In this document: piece after piece, positions 3 through 41,539 of the stretch
Position numbering within the stretch: the first letter of the stretch is position 1
How the letters are laid out: each line of letters begins with the position of its first letter
Virus record (IMG/VR): IMGVR_UViG_3300012582_000008
Coordinates: 1 to 41,539 of that record
Direction: 5' to 3' (one strand)
Source of the DNA: a virus
Length of the DNA stretch: 41,539 nucleotides
Program-made: the position numbers and the translations under genes
The notes under the pieces: generated by a model
Told to the model about the DNA's origin: nothing
Databases searched by the model: none
Seen by the model: the letters and a program-made list of their open reading frames with translations, nothing else

Positions 3-1163
3 GGCACCACCGTGGTCTCGGTCGACACGGTGGGCCTGACCATCACCATGTCGGTGGCCTCCACCGGCAATGCGTTTACCGACACCGTGAGTCTCACCAT
101 TCCGGTGTTTGGTCGCATCACTGATCCGGGGTTTTTGGGTGCCGATCGGATTCTCTTCATTGAGGGGTGGTTGATGTGCAATCAGCCGCGCACCCGCACT
201 TTTTACACCACCGGGCCGGTGCCCTATTCGATGCTGTTTCCCGGCGCGTTCTTTGCGCTCAAGGATTCAAGCACCGATAATTTGGTCACGCTCATGGAGA
301 ACACGCGCGAGGCGTGGCTCATCGGCGAGCGCACCAGCGAGGTCTGGTTCAACGCGGGCGGCACCAATTTTCCGTTTCAGCGCTTGCCGGGTGTCGGGCC
401 GCAGATGGGCTGCGCCGCGGTGCATTCGATCGCGCGCGGTGGCGCCCAGTTGGCCTGGTTGGGGCGCAATGAACAGGGCCAGAACGTGGTGGTCTGCACC
501 AGTCAATACACCTGGTCGCGGCTCTCGAATCATGCGGTGGAACACGCCATCTCACAATACCCGGTGGTCTCGGATGCCATCGGTTACTGCTACGAGGAAG
601 AGGGTCACCTGTTCTACATGCTGACCTTTCCAACCGCCGATGTCACCTGGTGTTATGACTTCACCAGTCAGACATGGGCCAAGCGCTTAAGCTACGACCC
701 GGTGGCTGGCCTGTATCACCGGCACCGCTCCAACTGCTTCATGGATTTCGGCGATGTGCGCATTGTCGGCGACTATTCCACCGGGCAGTTGCATCAGATG
801 AGCCGCAACTTCTACACCGATGCCGGTAACCCGTTGCGCGCCTTGCGCCGCACGCCGCACCTATGGAAGAAAGAGGACCGCGAGCGGCTATTCTTTGCGC
901 AATTACAGATTGAATTCACCCCCGGCGTGGGGCTGCAGGTGGGTCAAGGGTCGAGCCCGCAAGTGATGTTGCGCTGGTCGGATGATGGCGCGTTCACCTG
1001 GAGCAACGAACATTGGACCACCATCGGCCGTGCTGGTCAGACCAAGAACCGCGCCATCTGGCGCCAGTTGGGGCAAGCGCGCGATCGGGTTTGGGAAGCG
1101 GTCATCAGTGATCCGGTACCGCGCGACATCATCGGCGCCACCCTCTTTGCGGAATCAAGCTAA
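3..1163 (+). CDS. P22 gp10-like tail accessory factor (3' part; split by the contig ends)
   Basis: This is the C-terminal part of a gp10-family protein (packaged-DNA stabilization, head-to-tail adaptor ring), about 386 residues. The frame is open from the first bases, so the true start lies at the other end of the contig (40965). Closing the circle over the shared CCGGCAC gives an uninterrupted protein reading VIPAGTTVVSV across the junction. The body is rich in aromatic and Trp residues typical of the family (for example EAWLIGERTSEVWF near 102-115 and FAQLQIEF near 298). The family plugs the portal after packaging together with gp4 and gp26. It is followed by a TAATG overlap with the next gene. 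Family assignment is by recognition and genome position; the split is seen directly. Confidence 0.85.
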   Translation, partial: GTTVVSVDTVGLTITMSVASTGNAFTDTVSLTIPVFGRITDPGFLGADRILFIEGWLMCNQPRTRTFYTTGPVPYSMLFPGAFFALKDSSTDNLVTLMENTREAWLIGERTSEVWFNAGGTNFPFQRLPGVGPQMGCAAVHSIARGGAQLAWLGRNEQGQNVVVCTSQYTWSRLSNHAVEHAISQYPVVSDAIGYCYEEEGHLFYMLTFPTADVTWCYDFTSQTWAKRLSYDPVAGLYHRHRSNCFMDFGDVRIVGDYSTGQLHQMSRNFYTDAGNPLRALRRTPHLWKKEDRERLFFAQLQIEFTPGVGLQVGQGSSPQVMLRWSDDGAFTWSNEHWTTIGRAGQTKNRAIWRQLGQARDRVWEAVISDPVPRDIIGATLFAESS

Positions 1164-1507
1164 TGGGCACCAGTCAATACCGAACCGTCCCGACCTATGA
1201 ACAGCAGATGACACCGGGCAGTCACAATGATGCTGCGTGGTACCGCTATTTTCAGCAAAACGAATCCGGTACGCCGCCGAGCAGCGAGATGCCGGTTACC
1301 ATCGCAGGTTCGCCGTTTAGCTTCACCGCGCCGTCCAAGGGCTTTGTGATTCTGTCGGGCGGCACGGTAGGCAATGTGATGTTCTCGCGCACCACCGGTA
1401 CCTTCTACTTGACCGGGCAGACCGCGGGCGTATTCCCCATGGCACAGAACGATGTGCTCAAAGTCACCTACAGCGTGCGACCCACGCTGATATTCGTGCC
1501 CACGTGA
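1163..1507 (+). CDS. Small virion-region protein, unknown function
   Basis: A 114-residue protein whose ATG shares one base with the upstream stop (TAATG), so it is probably translationally coupled to the gp10-like gene. It is rich in Thr, Ser, Gly and Pro with alternating hydrophobics in the second half (FVILSGGTVGNVMFS, GTFYLTG), which suggests a beta-rich fold. It occupies the place where P22 carries the tail needle gp26, but has no long coiled coil, so I do not call it a needle. Probably a structural or tail protein, inferred from position only. Confidence 0.6.
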   Translation: MGTSQYRTVPTYEQQMTPGSHNDAAWYRYFQQNESGTPPSSEMPVTIAGSPFSFTAPSKGFVILSGGTVGNVMFSRTTGTFYLTGQTAGVFPMAQNDVLKVTYSVRPTLIFVPT

Positions 1508-2334
1508 ACGCACTCGAATCGGCGACCAAACTTGAAGGCGCATTGCAAGCCCTGCCGCAAGTCGCTTGCGATGTGATGCACGCGTTTGCGCCGGGGATTT
1601 ACATACGGCAAGTAATCTTGCCCGCGGGCACCTTCGTGATGGGCCATCGGCACAAAAACGCGCACTTGAACATTATGCTGCAGGGACATCTGACACTCTG
1701 CAATGACGATGGCACACGCAGCGACTTGCGCGCGCCCATCGTCTGTGTCGCCGCACCGGGGCGCAAGATTGCCTACGTGCATGAGCGCACCGTGTGGCTG
1801 AATCTGTATGCCACACCGGACACCGATGTCGAGAATCTGGAGAGAACCTACCTCGATAAAACTCTGGAATGGGAGCAATTGAACACCGAATTCAACAACG
1901 CCCTCACCCTCAATCGAGAGGATGATCGCGCCGACTTCGACAATTTTCTGTGGGAGACCGGCTTGAATGCGGAGAGCGTGCGGCGCGAATCGGAAAACAC
2001 CGTGGATCAAATCCCGTTTCCGGTAGGCGCCTACAAGTGCAAGGTGGGCGCATCGCAGATCGAGGGGCACGGGCTGATCGCGACCGCCGATATCGTGCCC
2101 GGCGAGATGATCGCGCCCGCACGCCTGGAATTGAAGCGCACGCCCGCGGGCCGCTATACCAACCATGCCAAGCTGCCGAACGCGCGCATGGAGCGCTCGC
2201 GCTTTGCCGATTGCGATGATATCTACTTGATTGCGGCGCGGCCGATCGGCGGCACCTTAGGCGGCCAAGATGGCGAGGAAATCACCGTCAATTACCGCGA
2301 GGCGCTCACCTTGAATCAGCGAGTCACGCAATGA
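1504..2334 (+). CDS. Cupin-SET domain fusion protein (putative protein lysine methyltransferase)
   Basis: A 276-residue protein beginning at GTG (GTGA overlap with the preceding stop). Residues about 25-105 look like a single cupin: GHRHKNAHLNIMLQG (47-61) supplies the metal-binding HxH pair and conserved Gly, and PGRKIAYVH (85-93) resembles the second cupin motif. Residues about 175-270 look like a SET domain: IEGHGLIATADI (186-197) matches the N-terminal SET strand, RYTNHAKLPNA (217-227) matches the RxxNHSxxPN cofactor-binding motif with Ala in place of Ser, and GEEITVNY (257-264) matches the GEELxxDY motif. Known SET enzymes transfer methyl from SAM to lysine. It lies between gp10-like and ejection-protein genes, so a virion or early-infection substrate is possible; that is inference. 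The 1468-2166 minus-strand frame is a shadow. Confidence 0.7.
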   Translation: MNALESATKLEGALQALPQVACDVMHAFAPGIYIRQVILPAGTFVMGHRHKNAHLNIMLQGHLTLCNDDGTRSDLRAPIVCVAAPGRKIAYVHERTVWLNLYATPDTDVENLERTYLDKTLEWEQLNTEFNNALTLNREDDRADFDNFLWETGLNAESVRRESENTVDQIPFPVGAYKCKVGASQIEGHGLIATADIVPGEMIAPARLELKRTPAGRYTNHAKLPNARMERSRFADCDDIYLIAARPIGGTLGGQDGEEITVNYREALTLNQRVTQ

Positions 2335-3119
2335 GCGCGGTCGCGGCGGCGGTGGTCGCAGGCGGCGCCATTGTGGGGTCGGTAATCAGCGCGGACGCAT
2401 CCAAGAGTGCCGCGAATCAACAGGCACAATCGGCACAGAACGCGCTCAATGTGCAAACAGGCATGTATGACAAGACCGTCGCCAATGAAATGCCCTACAT
2501 GCAGGCGGGCCAGGGCGCGACCTCGCAATTGAATTACTTGCTAGGCACCAGTGGCACGCCCGGCACTGCGCCGAACGGCAACAATTCGGCCGGTGGTTTC
2601 GGGTCGCTGAATGCGCCGTTCACCACCGACATGATGAAGCAGTATTCCCCGGCGTACCAGTTCCAGCTGCAGCAAGGGCAGCAAGGGGTGCTCAACCAGT
2701 CGGCCGGCCAGTCGGGCGCGCTCTCCGGGGCCGCGCTCAAGGATCTGACCAGCTTTAATCAGAATTACGCCAACACCGCGTTCAACAATGCGTTCACGCA
2801 GTACCAGACGCAACAGTCGAATACCTTCAATCGGTTGGCCGGCATTGCGCAGTTGGGTCAGGGCGCGGCCTCGAATCAAGCGACCGGCGGCAGTAACTTT
2901 GCCTCCGGCATCGGCCAAAGCGCGCAGAACATCGGCACCGCACAGGCCGGTGGCACGGTGGGCGCGGCCAATGCCATCAGCGGCGGCATCAACGCGGCAA
3001 CGCCGTGGCTGTATGCGGGCGGCGGCGGTGGCGGCTTCACTCCGCTCAATGCGTCAAGTCAATTGGGTACCACCTCCGGGTGGGGTAATGGCGCCGATGC
3101 GATCCAGGTGAATTTCTAA
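2331..3119 (+). CDS. DNA ejection protein, P22 gp7-like
   Basis: 262 residues, start overlapping the previous stop (ATGA). The N-terminus is a hydrophobic Ala/Val/Gly helix (AAAVVAGGAIVGSVIS, 4-19), followed by an Ala/Gln-rich stretch and a Gly/Ser/Asn-rich body (GGGGGG near 233). This plan, a hydrophobic N-terminal helix plus a Gln-rich low-complexity body, is typical of small ejectosome proteins in P22-like phages (gp7), which leave the capsid and help build the conduit across the envelope. Gene order (this, then two more Gln/Ala-rich proteins, then receptor-binding proteins) supports the role. The function is inferred from architecture and position. Confidence 0.7.
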   Translation: MSAVAAAVVAGGAIVGSVISADASKSAANQQAQSAQNALNVQTGMYDKTVANEMPYMQAGQGATSQLNYLLGTSGTPGTAPNGNNSAGGFGSLNAPFTTDMMKQYSPAYQFQLQQGQQGVLNQSAGQSGALSGAALKDLTSFNQNYANTAFNNAFTQYQTQQSNTFNRLAGIAQLGQGAASNQATGGSNFASGIGQSAQNIGTAQAGGTVGAANAISGGINAATPWLYAGGGGGGFTPLNASSQLGTTSGWGNGADAIQVNF

Positions 3120-6352: not shown

Positions 6353-6466
6353 TGCATCCTCATTCTCTTGAGTGCCAAGCCGATTCACGCGGTTCTCGTG
6401 ATCGCGGCGCATCCCGTCTTTGATGAAAAGATAGAGGACCACAAGTCCGAAGCCAATGTAGATCAT
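6305..6466 (-). CDS. Small membrane protein with duplicated C-terminal peptide
   Basis: 53 residues. One N-terminal transmembrane helix (MIYIGFGLVVLYLFI, 1-15) is followed by a charged segment (KDGMRRDHENRVNR) and a tail ending FAKRSLAPYAGIERD. That tail is nearly the same as the C-terminus of the ejection protein encoded on the facing strand. AAGAGG lies 8 bases upstream of the ATG, and the start overlaps the stop of the upstream minus-strand gene (ATGA). Preservation of the tail peptide despite many synonymous changes argues that it is translated. Function unknown; a membrane or virion-associated role is possible. Confidence 0.7.
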   Translation of the reverse strand: MIYIGFGLVVLYLFIKDGMRRDHENRVNRLGTQENEDAFAKRSLAPYAGIERD

Positions 6467-6570
6467 GCGCGGCGCCTCTTGTGTTCATCAATCGCGAATC
6501 GCACCAGCAAGAAAATACCGCCGATACCAACACACACCATGAGCATCAACACTGAAAGGAATCTTAACAT
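6463..6570 (-). CDS. 35-residue single-span membrane peptide
   Basis: Starts at ATG with GGAG six bases upstream. It is almost entirely one hydrophobic helix (LRFLSVLMLMVCVGIGGIFL) followed by a charged KRRR tail, and ends in an ATGA overlap with the 53-residue gene downstream. The two genes form a minus-strand mini-operon inside a plus-strand late region. Function not recognised. Confidence 0.6.
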   Translation of the reverse strand: MLRFLSVLMLMVCVGIGGIFLLVRFAIDEHKRRRA

Positions 6571-6580
6571 TTAGGTCTCC

Positions 6581-8491
6581 ATGACAACGACAGTTCTCGC
6601 GCCCTACCTCACACAACAGTTCTTCGGCAATAACGGCGCTTTCTTGAGTGGTGGGCAACTCTTTACCTACCAGGCCGGCACTAACACGCCGATCTCGACC
6701 TACGTAGATAGCATAGGCGTTACCACCAACACAAACCCGATTGTACTTAATGCGCGTGGCGAGTGTTCACTTTGGTTAATTCCGAATACTGGATACAAGT
6801 TCGTGCTGCAGGACAGCAGCGGCAATCCCATCTGGACCCGCGACCAGGTGATCCAGGCGCAGCTGCTGACCCTGTTCGGTGGGGTTGACACCGGGGCTGC
6901 GAATAACTATCTGCTCAATTTCACCTGGCCGTATACCGCCTACGCGAACGGCGAAGTGATTTACTGGATTCCGGCCAACAGCAACACCGGTCCGTCGACG
7001 CTCAATGTAAACGGTCTCGGCGTGATCCCGATCACCAATATCAATGGGTCTGCGCTCGGCGCGAATCAAATCATCGCCGGCACCACCGCCGCAGTGATGT
7101 ATTACCAGGGCGCGTTCCAGTTGCTGTCGATAGGCGCGTTTGCCGGGGTCACCATCGGCACCTTCGGCCAAGAGGTGCCGATCGCATCGGCCGCCACCGT
7201 CGATCTAGGCACCGCGCCCGCGCATGTGGTGCAAATCACTGGCACCACCACCATTACGTCGTTTGGTTCGTCCGCCAATATTCTCGCGCCGGTCTACCTG
7301 GTGCGCATCGCGCAATCGCTCACCCTCACCTATAACTCGGTCTCAATGATTTTGCCCGGCAACACCAATATCATCTCGACCGCAGGCGATACGCTGATAG
7401 CGCAGTACTTAGGCTCCGGAAACTGGAAAGTCGATTTCTATCAGTCCTCCACCGGTAGCACCGCGAACGCGAAAATCAAACCCGCGGACACCGTGCTGGT
7501 GAGCAACGCAACACTCACCCCGGACCCGGATCTACAGAGCAACATGCTGGCGATCGGCCGCTACGCGTGGGAAATCTTTTTGTTGTTCGATTCGGTCGCG
7601 GGCGGCGCGGGTTTCAAATGGAGCAATGACGGTACCGCGGTCGACTCGCGCGCCGCCGCGCCCGCGGTGGTCTCAGGCTTTGTCAATGGCGCGGCCTATG
7701 GGCCGAAAGCCGAATCACCCTATGGCGCTACCATCAGCTATGCGACGGTGGGCACCGCCGCCAATAGCAACGCCGTGCTCTACAAGGGCAGTTTGCTGGT
7801 GTCAACTCCCGGCACCTTCGGCATCACCTGGGCGCAGGCCGCCAGTACCGCAAGCTCGACCACACTGCGCGCGGGGAGTTACTTGACCGTGTCGTTGCTC
7901 AACACGGGCGCGAGCGCCAACATCATTCAGCACGTCTATTCGACTCCCGGCTCGTTCACCGAAACCGTACCCAATGGCTACAACACGCTCACGCTGGAGG
8001 TGTGGGGCGCGGGCGGTGGCGGCGGCGGTGGTCTGAATAGCGCACCCAATGGCGTTGGGGGCGGCGGTGGCGGGTCGGGCGGGTATTGCCGTAGCTCGAT
8101 CAGTGTGACCGGCCTAGGGGGCAGCACCGTGGCTTATACGGTCGGTGCCGCCGGTATCCCGGCCGGCAATGGCGGTAATTCGAGCGCATCCTCCGGCACG
8201 TTGGTGATTGCGACGCTCACCGGCGGCGGGGGCCTCACCGGCGCGAGCGCGCCTCCGGCCGGTCAGGGCGGGGTGGGTGGTACGGCCACCGGCGGCACGG
8301 TGGTCAATACGGCTGGCAACACGGGCGGTGCCGGGCAAACCAACGCCGCTGGCGGCTCTGGTGGCCTTGGCGCCTTTGGCATCCCCGGCATCAATGGCGG
8401 CGGTACCGCGGGCGGTGGCGGCGGGTCACTGGCGCACCTCGCCGGCTTTGCGGGCGGCACCGGCTTAGTGATTTTCTCCTACGCGCCATGA
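6581..8491 (+). CDS. Tail fibre / receptor-binding protein with glycine-rich C-terminal domain
   Basis: 636 residues. The N-terminal ~85 residues (LAPYLTQQFFGNNGAFLSGG onward, with ARGECSLWL at 58-66) are shared with the next gene and probably form the particle-anchoring domain. The middle is a beta-rich Thr/Ala/Ile sequence. The C-terminal ~150 residues are extremely Gly-rich (GAGGGGGGGL, GVGGGGGGSGG), starting with PNGYNTLTLEVWGAGGGG and ending GLVIFSYAP. This matches the glycine-rich C-terminal domains of many tail fibres, which bind host surface structures through polyglycine loops. The ATG is close to the divergent small-gene start. It overlaps the next gene by ATGA. Confidence 0.8.
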   Translation: MTTTVLAPYLTQQFFGNNGAFLSGGQLFTYQAGTNTPISTYVDSIGVTTNTNPIVLNARGECSLWLIPNTGYKFVLQDSSGNPIWTRDQVIQAQLLTLFGGVDTGAANNYLLNFTWPYTAYANGEVIYWIPANSNTGPSTLNVNGLGVIPITNINGSALGANQIIAGTTAAVMYYQGAFQLLSIGAFAGVTIGTFGQEVPIASAATVDLGTAPAHVVQITGTTTITSFGSSANILAPVYLVRIAQSLTLTYNSVSMILPGNTNIISTAGDTLIAQYLGSGNWKVDFYQSSTGSTANAKIKPADTVLVSNATLTPDPDLQSNMLAIGRYAWEIFLLFDSVAGGAGFKWSNDGTAVDSRAAAPAVVSGFVNGAAYGPKAESPYGATISYATVGTAANSNAVLYKGSLLVSTPGTFGITWAQAASTASSTTLRAGSYLTVSLLNTGASANIIQHVYSTPGSFTETVPNGYNTLTLEVWGAGGGGGGGLNSAPNGVGGGGGGSGGYCRSSISVTGLGGSTVAYTVGAAGIPAGNGGNSSASSGTLVIATLTGGGGLTGASAPPAGQGGVGGTATGGTVVNTAGNTGGAGQTNAAGGSGGLGAFGIPGINGGGTAGGGGGSLAHLAGFAGGTGLVIFSYAP

Positions 8492-10407
8492 CCGCCATCC
8501 TCGCACCGCCGTTACGCTTTCGTGGCGTGGATAACTTTGGGTTGGCGCTGGTCGGCGGGCAACTGAGCAGCTTCATTGCCGGCACCTCCACCCCGCAGGC
8601 CACCTATGTAGACTCTACGCAGACTACGCAGAACGCCAACCCGATCATTCTCGATGCGCGCGGCGAGTGCAATCTCTGGCTTGACCCCACCAAGATTTAT
8701 AAATTTGCGCTGACCGATCAATTCGGCAATCCCGTATGGACGCAGGATCAGGTTCAGGGGTCACTCACCGCGGCGGCACTGACACAAGCATTTCTCGGGT
8801 CGATTCTCTATCCGCAGACGGCGGCAGAGATTGCCGCTGGCGTAAGTCCGATAAACTATGGCTATGCAGCTCTAAATCCCTACCGATATGGAGCCGATGG
8901 CCTTGGGGGCGCCAACGATGCAACAGCACTAGCAAGAGTGCAGTTGGTGCTCACTCAACTCTATCCCGCCGCGCCTCCCGCTACCGGAATAAACACATGG
9001 CTTAACGGCATGGCCGCTGCGGGCGTGCCGCAAACATCGCAGGAAGCCGCCGCCGCGATTGTTCCAACTTTCTACATTAACAAATTTGTTCCAACGCCAA
9101 AACGCTACGGTGCTGCGGGGGATGGCGTTACCAATGATACCGCCGCTTTGCAACGTTGGATTAATTCGACTGCCAATGACCTTGAACTCGATGACCTGAC
9201 TTACCTAAGTTCAGGACTAAATATCAGTCGAGCCGGCGTGCGAATCTACGGTAACGGTCAAAACTCGATCCTCAAAATCACCGGCGCGGTCGGTTCCTGC
9301 GGATTGCAGTTCGTCACCGCGGGACAAGTGGGTGTGCCTGGTGGCGCAGCCGCCGCTACACATTTCGGGGCTGGATTTATCGGCCGAGATTTTCGTATTC
9401 AATGCGTTGCATCGGCTAATCAGATTTACGGAATCTGGTGCAACAATGCTGAGATTACCAGTTTAGAGAATGTGACCATTGATTTAACGGGCAATACCTT
9501 CGCTGGCGCCGTGCGCAATGCAACGTATGGTTTGCTGGGTTATTTCCAGCAGGATGGCACGTTTCGCAAGTGCACCTTCACGAGCGGAGCCGGCGCGAAT
9601 TCCGATGGCATCATATTGACCGGTACTCTAGCATCCAACATCAGTTCAAATAATAATCTCTTTGAAGCTTGTCGAGCGCAATCTTGCGGCGGGTATGGAG
9701 TGCGCAACGTCATTGGCGATGGGAACGTATGGATTGGCGGAAAGTTGCAAAACAATACGACAGGCGGTTGGATAGAATCAGATGATGGTCTAGGTAACGG
9801 ACCTAGCAATACATTTCTCAGCGGTACCGCATTCGAAGTGAATTCGGGCGATGACATACGCGTGCAGAACGGCAATCATCTGATTGTCCGTGACAGTGCA
9901 TTCGAGAGCACCACCGCAACCAACCACATAAACCATACGTTCGGGAACAATTCAGTTTACGACAATAATCTTTCTTTCCCTGGGAAACCGGTCATTATCT
10001 CAGGCGGTAGCAATGTAAGGTGGAACTCTAACAATCTGTCATTTGGAACTCGCACCTTTACCGATGGTGTATTACAGCGCGAGCCCGTCACTGCCCTGAC
10101 ATTTGCCGCATCAATCGCGACTGATGCATCACAGGGTGATCTATATCGAGTCACGGCGACAAGCAATACTGCGATCACCTTTACGACTCCAACCAATACG
10201 AGCTTAGGACAGCGACTTCGTTATGAAGTAATCAACAATTCCGGCGGTGCAATGGGCGCCGTCGCGTTCAGTGCCGCCTTTCTATTGGTTGGCGCAGCAG
10301 CATTCGTCTCGCCGGCATCAGGCAAGCGCCGTGTCATTGAATTCTATTATCCCGTTAGTGGATTAAATCAATTCGTTGAAGTAACGCGCAGCACGGCGGA
10401 CATCTGA
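8488..10407 (+). CDS. Tailspike with pectate-lyase-type beta-helix
   Basis: 639 residues. The N-terminus (GGQLSSFIAGTSTPQATYVD; ARGECNLWL) is paralogous to the preceding protein. Around residue 205 comes RYGAAGDGVTNDTAALQRW, the signature opening of pectate-lyase-3/tailspike beta-helices, followed by Asn/Gly-rich rungs (GNGQNSIL, SNNNLFEACRA, GNHLIVRDSAFES). Such spikes bind and often cleave surface polysaccharide. From about base 8850 onward the DNA becomes visibly richer in A and T with a different codon choice, which suggests that the receptor domain was acquired separately from the anchor. Specific enzymatic activity cannot be stated. Confidence 0.85.
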   Translation: MTAILAPPLRFRGVDNFGLALVGGQLSSFIAGTSTPQATYVDSTQTTQNANPIILDARGECNLWLDPTKIYKFALTDQFGNPVWTQDQVQGSLTAAALTQAFLGSILYPQTAAEIAAGVSPINYGYAALNPYRYGADGLGGANDATALARVQLVLTQLYPAAPPATGINTWLNGMAAAGVPQTSQEAAAAIVPTFYINKFVPTPKRYGAAGDGVTNDTAALQRWINSTANDLELDDLTYLSSGLNISRAGVRIYGNGQNSILKITGAVGSCGLQFVTAGQVGVPGGAAAATHFGAGFIGRDFRIQCVASANQIYGIWCNNAEITSLENVTIDLTGNTFAGAVRNATYGLLGYFQQDGTFRKCTFTSGAGANSDGIILTGTLASNISSNNNLFEACRAQSCGGYGVRNVIGDGNVWIGGKLQNNTTGGWIESDDGLGNGPSNTFLSGTAFEVNSGDDIRVQNGNHLIVRDSAFESTTATNHINHTFGNNSVYDNNLSFPGKPVIISGGSNVRWNSNNLSFGTRTFTDGVLQREPVTALTFAASIATDASQGDLYRVTATSNTAITFTTPTNTSLGQRLRYEVINNSGGAMGAVAFSAAFLLVGAAAFVSPASGKRRVIEFYYPVSGLNQFVEVTRSTADI

Positions 10408-13293: not shown

Positions 13294-14304
13294 ATGGGAA
13301 CTCTAGTAAAGCGCGGATCGAAACACCGCGCAGTAGTGCGCATAGTCGGGCAGAAAACGCTTACGAAAACCTTCGATAAAATCCGCGAAGCTCAAGTCTG
13401 GATAGCGGCCACCGAGACCGGCCTACGCCAGATCCGAGCGACCGAGCCCAACGATAAATTGAATTTGAGCCAAGTGCTCATCAAATATCGAGATGAAATT
13501 CTCGCTCAAAAACCCTACAAAGTAAGCGTATCAGTGCCGTCGCGATTCGCTGTCGAATTCGCCGGTGTGACGCTGGTACAGATGACACATGAATGGTGGT
13601 TAAAATCCGTGCAGGATTGGGCGGTCAAACCGGCCAGCGCTAAACGCTACATGTTGTTCCTAGTGGGTGCATTGCGGGCGGCTGAGGATTTGAAATGGGG
13701 TATCAAGGTAGATTGGGAGAGTTATCATGAGGCCCGTAAAGCACTCAGTCGGCGGGGTTTGATTGCGACTGGCAGAGCACGTGATCGGCGCGTGAGCGAT
13801 GAAGAAATCGCATTGCTCAAGCAACAATTGACAGGCGCATCAATTCCCCTCGCTGATATGATGGATTTTGCTGTTGGAACGGCCATGCGGGTCGGTGAAA
13901 TTTGCCGCATAACCTGGGTTGATATCGATCAGCGCAGCAAAGTTGTCATCATCCGCGACCGCAAAGACCCGAAGCATAAATCAGGAAATGACAAGAAAGT
14001 GCCGTTGCTGGGCAGTACACTTGAGATAATCAAGCGACAACCGACAACCGATTCCAAAGTTTTCCCATGGAAACCAAACTCAGTCAGTCGTCTATTTACC
14101 TATGCGGCGCGCGTCGCAGGCATTCAAAATATTCATTTCCACGATTTGCGCCATGAAGCGATCACGCGATTGTTCGAGCAAGGGTTCGCAATCCCAGAGG
14201 TCGCGATAGTGTCAGGCCACACAAATTGGGACATGCTTCGCAAGTACACCCACATCAAACCCGAAAGCCTGCACGGCGGCCCGCGGCAAGCGAGGATCGC
14301 ATGA
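13294..14304 (+). CDS. int: Tyrosine recombinase integrase
   Basis: 336 residues. The catalytic set of tyrosine recombinases is present: R199 in GTAMRVGEICRITW, a beta-hairpin lysine (K224 or K235) in DPKHKSGNDKKVPL, H283 and R286 in HDLRH, H309 and W312 in SGHTNW, and nucleophile Y318 in RKYTHI. Residues about 55-150 form the core-binding domain and the N-terminal 50 residues resemble an arm-binding domain. It performs site-specific integration and, with an excisionase, excision, so the phage is temperate. AAAGGAAAGGA lies just upstream of the ATG. It is followed by three tightly coupled small genes. Confidence 0.95.
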   Translation: MGTLVKRGSKHRAVVRIVGQKTLTKTFDKIREAQVWIAATETGLRQIRATEPNDKLNLSQVLIKYRDEILAQKPYKVSVSVPSRFAVEFAGVTLVQMTHEWWLKSVQDWAVKPASAKRYMLFLVGALRAAEDLKWGIKVDWESYHEARKALSRRGLIATGRARDRRVSDEEIALLKQQLTGASIPLADMMDFAVGTAMRVGEICRITWVDIDQRSKVVIIRDRKDPKHKSGNDKKVPLLGSTLEIIKRQPTTDSKVFPWKPNSVSRLFTYAARVAGIQNIHFHDLRHEAITRLFEQGFAIPEVAIVSGHTNWDMLRKYTHIKPESLHGGPRQARIA

Positions 14305-40964: not shown

Positions 40965-41539
40965 GTGTTCAGGGGCGGCGATTTCGGGTTTGTCGGGGAT
41001 GCGTATCAAGCGCCGATGGTACTGCAGGATGCGCAAGATGCGATTAATTTCTACCTCGAAAGATCGCCAAAAGAAGACTCTAAGATGCCGAACGCGTTGC
41101 TAGGCGCGCCCGGTTTGAACCCGGTGACCTCGACGCAAACTGGCCAAGTGCGCGGCGCCTGGGTTCTGCCCGGCAATATGCAAGCGTTGGTGGTCACCGG
41201 TAACGGGTTGTACTTGGTCACCATCACGGTGCCAGCGACTCAGACCTCGCCGCCACAGTACGCCGCTGCGATGGTCGGAACCTTGCTCACCAATTCAGGC
41301 CCGGTGGTGATGCGTGATAACGGCGTGTTGCAGAATGGCTTCGGCGGCTATTGCCTGATTGTTGACGGCACCTACGGCTATTACTACTTGCTGTCGGGCA
41401 CGCCGTACGTCAACACCTTCGGCGCGAGTTTGAGCCTGGCGAGCAATCTGATTACCTTGCCGGGCGTGTTGCCGCCGGGTCTGATTGTGGCGAGTACCCC
41501 GACCTTGTCGGATACCAGCGGCGTGATTCCGGCCGGCAC
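40965..41539 (+). CDS. P22 gp10-like tail accessory factor (5' part)
   Basis: 191 codons plus two bases to the contig end, from GTG immediately after the previous stop. VFRGGDFGFVGDAYQAPMVL then DAQDAINFYLERSPKEDSKM and LLGAPGLNPVTS are the typical gp10-family N-terminus. Continues at base 3 of the window. The combined protein is about 578 residues, longer than P22 gp10 (472), and carries an IPAGTTV-type small insert at the junction. The start is chosen by adjacency to the stop; no strong ribosome site is seen. Confidence 0.85.
   Translation, partial: MFRGGDFGFVGDAYQAPMVLQDAQDAINFYLERSPKEDSKMPNALLGAPGLNPVTSTQTGQVRGAWVLPGNMQALVVTGNGLYLVTITVPATQTSPPQYAAAMVGTLLTNSGPVVMRDNGVLQNGFGGYCLIVDGTYGYYYLLSGTPYVNTFGASLSLASNLITLPGVLPPGLIVASTPTLSDTSGVIPAG

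Follow-up and report, generated by a model that had tools for sequence, protein, structure and literature searches.

The window analysed here is one strand of a viral genome, the whole 41,539-nt stretch at positions 1-41,539 of IMG/VR record IMGVR_UViG_3300012582_000008. The virus is a P22-like podophage, in which Pfam and PHROG matches identify genes for coat, portal, scaffold, terminase and integrase. The C-terminal part of a gp10-like head-closure/tail gene lies at 12..1163 on the plus strand (phrog_578, E=9e-83) and the 5′ part at 40965-41537. Because this gene leaves the end of the record and appears to resume at its start (3-1163), the record probably represents a complete genome, either circular or joined at its ends. 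The integrase-like gene (13294-14304; phrog_1, E=1e-44) indicates that the phage is probably temperate; its cultured relative, Rhodoferax phage P26218, has been described as lytic (PMC4657236). Two tail-spike/fibre-like genes (6581-8491 and 8488-10407) have a common N-terminal region, with phrog_26190 matched in both, as if attached to the same adaptor, and the second carries a pectate-lyase-like domain.

A gene for a 276-aa cupin-SET protein with a GTG start occupies positions 1504..2334 on the plus strand (ORF call, Pfam, PHROG, AlphaFold2). It is preceded by a 114-aa ORF without a family match (1163..1507, plus strand), a candidate tail-tip or needle-like part, and followed by a translationally coupled gene for a gp7-like DNA-ejection protein (2331..3119, plus strand; phrog_598, E=5e-28). 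Stop/start overlaps flank the gene on both sides, with a 4-nt GTGA at 1504-1507 upstream and ATGA at 2331-2334 downstream. A sequence-only reading had placed the gene between gp10-like and gp7-like virion genes, and the phrog_578 and phrog_598 matches bear this out, with the 114-aa ORF intervening upstream. The same reading equated the site with the gp26/gp14 slot of P22. The position roughly corresponds, but no sequence link to gp14 was found: P22 gp14 matches DUF2824 and phrog_651 and the window protein matches neither. P22 gp26 is the tail needle, a trimeric coiled coil; the model of the window protein is a cupin plus a SET domain and not a needle.

The family phrog_34170, of unknown function, matches the cupin-SET protein over its full length (residues 11-274 of 276, E=1e-71), and the N-terminal half also matches the cupin-only phage families phrog_12032 (E=2e-30) and phrog_24280 (E=1e-24). 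An AlphaFold2 model built from 34 aligned sequences, the window protein and relatives from the fetched loci, has a mean pLDDT of 92.9 over the whole protein. It consists of barrel strands at residues 23-103, helices at 109-163, SET strands from residue 175 and a C-terminal helix at 264-275. Foldseek relates the first part of the model to small cupins and the last part to MLL1, SETD8 and vSET. The proposed fusion of a cupin to a SET domain is thus supported by the Pfam SET match, the phage cupin families and both predicted folds. All the motifs on which the proposal was built are present (H48-R49-H50, G188-H-G190, R217-YTNHAKLP-N226 and G257-EEITVN-Y264), and structure prediction, the check it had called for, recovers a SET fold with the residues of the SAM pocket. 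The SET domain is under purifying selection, with a median dN/dS of 0.057 over 23 independent pairs against 0.047 for the cupin, by a simple Nei-Gojobori estimate.

The SET domain extends over residues ~168-276 (2005..2331, plus strand) and lacks a SET-I insert (Pfam, AlphaFold2, Foldseek). Pfam SET (PF00856) is matched in the window protein with E=1.9e-5 and 25.4 bits, above the curated cut-off of 22.4, and in 34/34 aligned relatives with a best E of 2.8e-8. Residue conservation was counted over 79 distinct SET sequences from the fetched loci, 78 of them readable at some positions. The predicted SAM-binding GxG motif, G188-H-G190 (2065..2073, plus strand), has G190 in 79/79 and G188 in 78/79. 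In the R217-YTNHAKLP-N226 motif (2152..2181, plus strand), predicted to serve in SAM binding and the active site, N220 is kept in 78/78 and H221 in 77/78. The predicted catalytic Tyr264, in G257-EEITVN-Y264 (2272..2295, plus strand), is kept in 78/78, and R212, T213, G216 and R217 are found in all 78 readable rows. Membership of the SET superfamily is indicated by the fold together with the GxG, (R)xxNHxxxPN and catalytic Tyr motifs, and by these residues the predicted methyltransferase core is intact.

The SET module alone (residues 139-276) is predicted with a pLDDT of 91.5; among PDB structures vSET matches it best (TM 0.65 on target). The SET-I region is nearly absent, with ~11 profile columns between the SET halves versus ~45 residues in MLL1. 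Since it is in SET-I that the fold varies, its loss is compatible with membership of the superfamily. It does tell against the methyltransferase reading in one respect, as the usual substrate channel is incomplete without it. The helical linker (residues 109-163; 1828..1992, plus strand; AlphaFold2) may take over the role of SET-I; its last part, from ~residue 139, accompanies SET even in stand-alone SET genes. Two cyanobacterial stand-alone SET proteins, L102:5815-6396 (193 aa) and L103:5923-6393 (156 aa), are distantly related to the phage SET and have more sequence separating the two SET halves.

The cupin barrel covers residues ~20-106 (1561..1821, plus strand; AlphaFold2, Foldseek, phrog_12032/24280). 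It has the double-stranded beta-barrel cupin fold in the AlphaFold2 model and by Foldseek similarity to small cupins; Pfam Cupin_2 matches just 4/34 aligned members, and no significant sequence match to solved structures was found for this part. The sequence-only reading had offered a 2-oxoglutarate demethylase/hydroxylase-like function for the cupin. The fold and the HxH of the window protein, with its canonical motif-1 spacing (G42-x5-H48-x-H50-x3-H54-x6-G61), would allow for such an enzyme working with or against SET. Across the cupin-SET family H48 is present in 72/75 and H54 in 70/75 relatives, but position 50, the second metal ligand, is Gln in 46/75, the motif-2 His position (89) is Ile or Val in most relatives, and the homologous cupin Bbp23 of phage BPP-1 has none of these His. 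The HxD/E...H metal triad of 2-oxoglutarate/Fe(II) (JmjC-like) oxygenases is absent. Because the metal-site residues are not conserved, the oxygenase reading is unsupported; the dioxygenase/demethylase candidate was rejected on this residue conservation, and a partnership of this kind with SET is extremely improbable. With no conserved metal site, a structural or adaptor role of the cupin is more likely. As far as found, the 'short tail fibre' label on cupin relatives appears to come from annotation; a search of the open-access literature for the cupin in virions found annotation, no experiment and no proteomic report.

The family is widespread: a scan of IMG/VR gave 449 relatives, and the 80 best were examined. 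The fusion is also found in two cultured phages, Rhodoferax P26218 and Pseudoalteromonas PH1, and a scan of bacterial genomes gave ten matches, mostly on phage-sized contigs. The usual gene order is gp10-like, at least one variable gene, cupin-SET and gp7-like, followed by further large genes at the gp20/gp16 position. The gp7-like gene directly follows cupin-SET in 100/107 loci (47/54 at 80% redundancy), and three of the seven exceptions are without a readable gene after cupin-SET in the fetched stretch. The zth2-2 group has no gp7 match after cupin-SET. The cupin of BPP-1 and related phages is flanked by terminase and portal and is not next to an ejection gene. Adjacency to gp7 is not universal because of this placement and of the zth2-2 group. 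In Krylovirinae a cupin-only homologue sits between tail tubular protein B and a gp14-like protein, in the slot of T7 gp13; a table in a review (PMC8954989) gives T7 gp14 as the counterpart of P22 gp7. In Dickeya phage Amaethon two gp7-like (phrog_21132) genes, L010:5225-5899 and 6384-7004, flank the cupin gene.

SET and cupin occur together in three arrangements. Besides the cupin-SET fusion of the window, a reversed SET-cupin is present in loci L205 and L211 and probably, as a frameshifted copy, in L202, and in L239 and L241, both from one sample, separate genes for SET (130 aa), cupin (168 aa) and the gp7-like protein are joined by ATGA overlaps. Pfam SET is confirmed in L205, L211 and L239. 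The SET domain is an accessory module, since cupin-only relatives occupy the same cassette: the cupin-SET locus L113 has flanking genes in common with L115, where the cupin is without SET, and two further cupin-only loci, L114 and L116, have a cassette of this kind. On a cupin tree with few columns and many open forks, the cupin-SET label changes at least four times on well-supported branches.

A GNAT-like gene adjoins 37 cupin-only genes in the fetched loci (14 after removal of 80% redundancy), upstream in each; the figure of 37 is not a frequency, because the loci were partly picked by queries from GNAT-bearing phages. The order is terminase-GNAT-cupin-portal in BPP-1-like phages and tail tube-GNAT-cupin-internal virion protein in Acinetobacter phages. 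SET and GNAT are not mutually exclusive, since some cupin-SET phages carry both: in L059 a GNAT gene (2398-2850) lies directly upstream of cupin-SET and in L007 one (9096-9584) lies two genes downstream. Pfam GNAT is confirmed in L003, L119, L125, L007 and L059. One cupin is thus repeatedly accompanied by two lysine/amine-modifying folds of different chemistry. Taken together, the three SET arrangements, the cupin-only relatives and the GNAT genes argue that the cupin is the core protein of the cassette and the modifying enzymes are its exchangeable partners.

The window protein can be read as a SAM-dependent protein-lysine methyltransferase, a minimal SET-I-less SET tethered to the cupin of a podophage assembly/ejection cassette. 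That it modifies a phage virion protein or a host target, as first suggested from the motifs, is a plausible predicted role. The preferred form of this reading, for and against which the balance is about even, is a late-expressed lysine methyltransferase positioned by its cupin on a virion or ejection protein. Cupin-SET would be expressed late, with the virion genes, and the cupin would dock the enzyme on an assembly intermediate. There the SET domain would methylate one or more lysines of a virion protein before or during packaging of that protein. The simplest substrate would be the co-translated gp7-like ejection protein or its partners. Among gp7-like proteins no lysine is conserved specifically with SET, the best column having Lys in 22/48 with SET versus 13/42 without. 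Because of this, and because the BPP-1 cupin is not beside the ejection genes, gp7 is just the simplest candidate. A broader and more tentative proposal is that the cupin is an adaptor recruiting either SET, fused at either end or unfused, or a GNAT acyltransferase to modify an ejection or virion protein, as an exchangeable podophage module.

Other readings give the SET domain a different target, or none. The protein could be carried in the virion, enter the host with the ejection proteins and methylate a host protein early in infection, in takeover or counter-defence. The conserved position beside ejection genes and the annotation of cupin relatives as tail or structural proteins are consistent with such a route. 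Gain and loss of SET between close relatives would be expected of an accessory host-directed function, and vSET, whose fold is the nearest, has a host protein as its substrate. However, presence of the protein in the virion is only presumed, and the exchange of GNAT and SET at the same cupin would be explained at least equally well by a phage target common to both. The stand-alone SET gene in L239 and L241 also means that SET need not belong to a structural protein. An early host target is on balance unlikely.

It is also quite improbable that SET is no longer catalytic and has a structural or peptide-binding function within a tail/assembly protein. The gene does sit among structural genes and SET-I, the usual helper in forming the substrate channel, is almost absent, but the GxG, NH and catalytic Tyr hardly vary even between divergent sequences, stand-alone and reversed forms included. 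Were SET to methylate its own cupin in cis, marking this one tail/assembly protein for maturation or timing, the fusion and the tight gene pairing in three arrangements would be accounted for. The invariant K88 of the cupin would offer a site, but this lysine is just as constant where the cupin has no SET, so something else accounts for its conservation, and the likelihood of modification in cis is accordingly small.

If the broader proposal, an exchangeable module in which the cupin recruits SET or GNAT, is true, phages would assemble or inject their DNA with the help of a post-translational modification not recognised before, and its catalyst would be a new SET subfamily that lacks SET-I. 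An intact SET kept by a widespread phage lineage and coupled to a protein of the injection cassette would point to lysine methylation in assembly or genome delivery. The proposal is directly testable, because there are several natural arrangements, close relatives with and without SET, and the cultured phages P26218 and PH1.

SET enzymes are familiar chiefly as writers of chromatin marks in eukaryotes. The closest known system is vSET (A612L) of chlorella virus PBCV-1 (PDB 3kma, 1n3j), likewise a viral small SET and the best structural match. It is a histone H3-Lys27 methyltransferase by its PDB title and a stand-alone enzyme of an algal virus; it differs from the phage protein in having no cupin, lies outside a phage virion cassette and shares 23% identity. 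The top viral structure match (BFVD) is A0A6J5PTS6, a 263-aa 'SET domain containing protein' of an uncultured Caudovirales phage; this entry, like the family phrog_34170, is catalogued with no function or mechanism assigned and no survey of its architectures. In the open-access literature no paper was found that describes the phage cupin-SET fusion, and nothing relevant on SET-domain methyltransferases of podoviruses, on SET proteins in phages generally or on methyl-lysine on phage virions. Term look-ups in papers on phages P26218, X14 and PBR31 returned nothing on the cupin-SET protein.

Homologous cupins without SET are represented by BPP-1 Bbp23 and by phrog_12032/phrog_24280 ('short tail fiber protein', 'tail fiber adhesin'). 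Cupin-only proteins hold the same cassette slot in P22-like and Krylovirinae phages, and some of their lineages have a separate GNAT gene immediately upstream in place of SET. A cobavirus GNAT gene adjoins internal virion proteins and has been suggested to correspond to T7 gp13 (PMC6775973). The T7 gp13/cobavirus GNAT resembles cupin-SET in lying beside ejection protein genes and in having an amine/lysine-modifying fold, but that fold is an acetyltransferase and no homology to cupin-SET was seen. The cupin-SET module and its repeated partnership, with a predicted activity and a candidate substrate, would surprise a specialist and allow a clear test. SET enzymes, phage cupins and the family as phrog_34170 are already known; new here is one SET module with one cupin in three arrangements, plus GNAT as an alternative partner.
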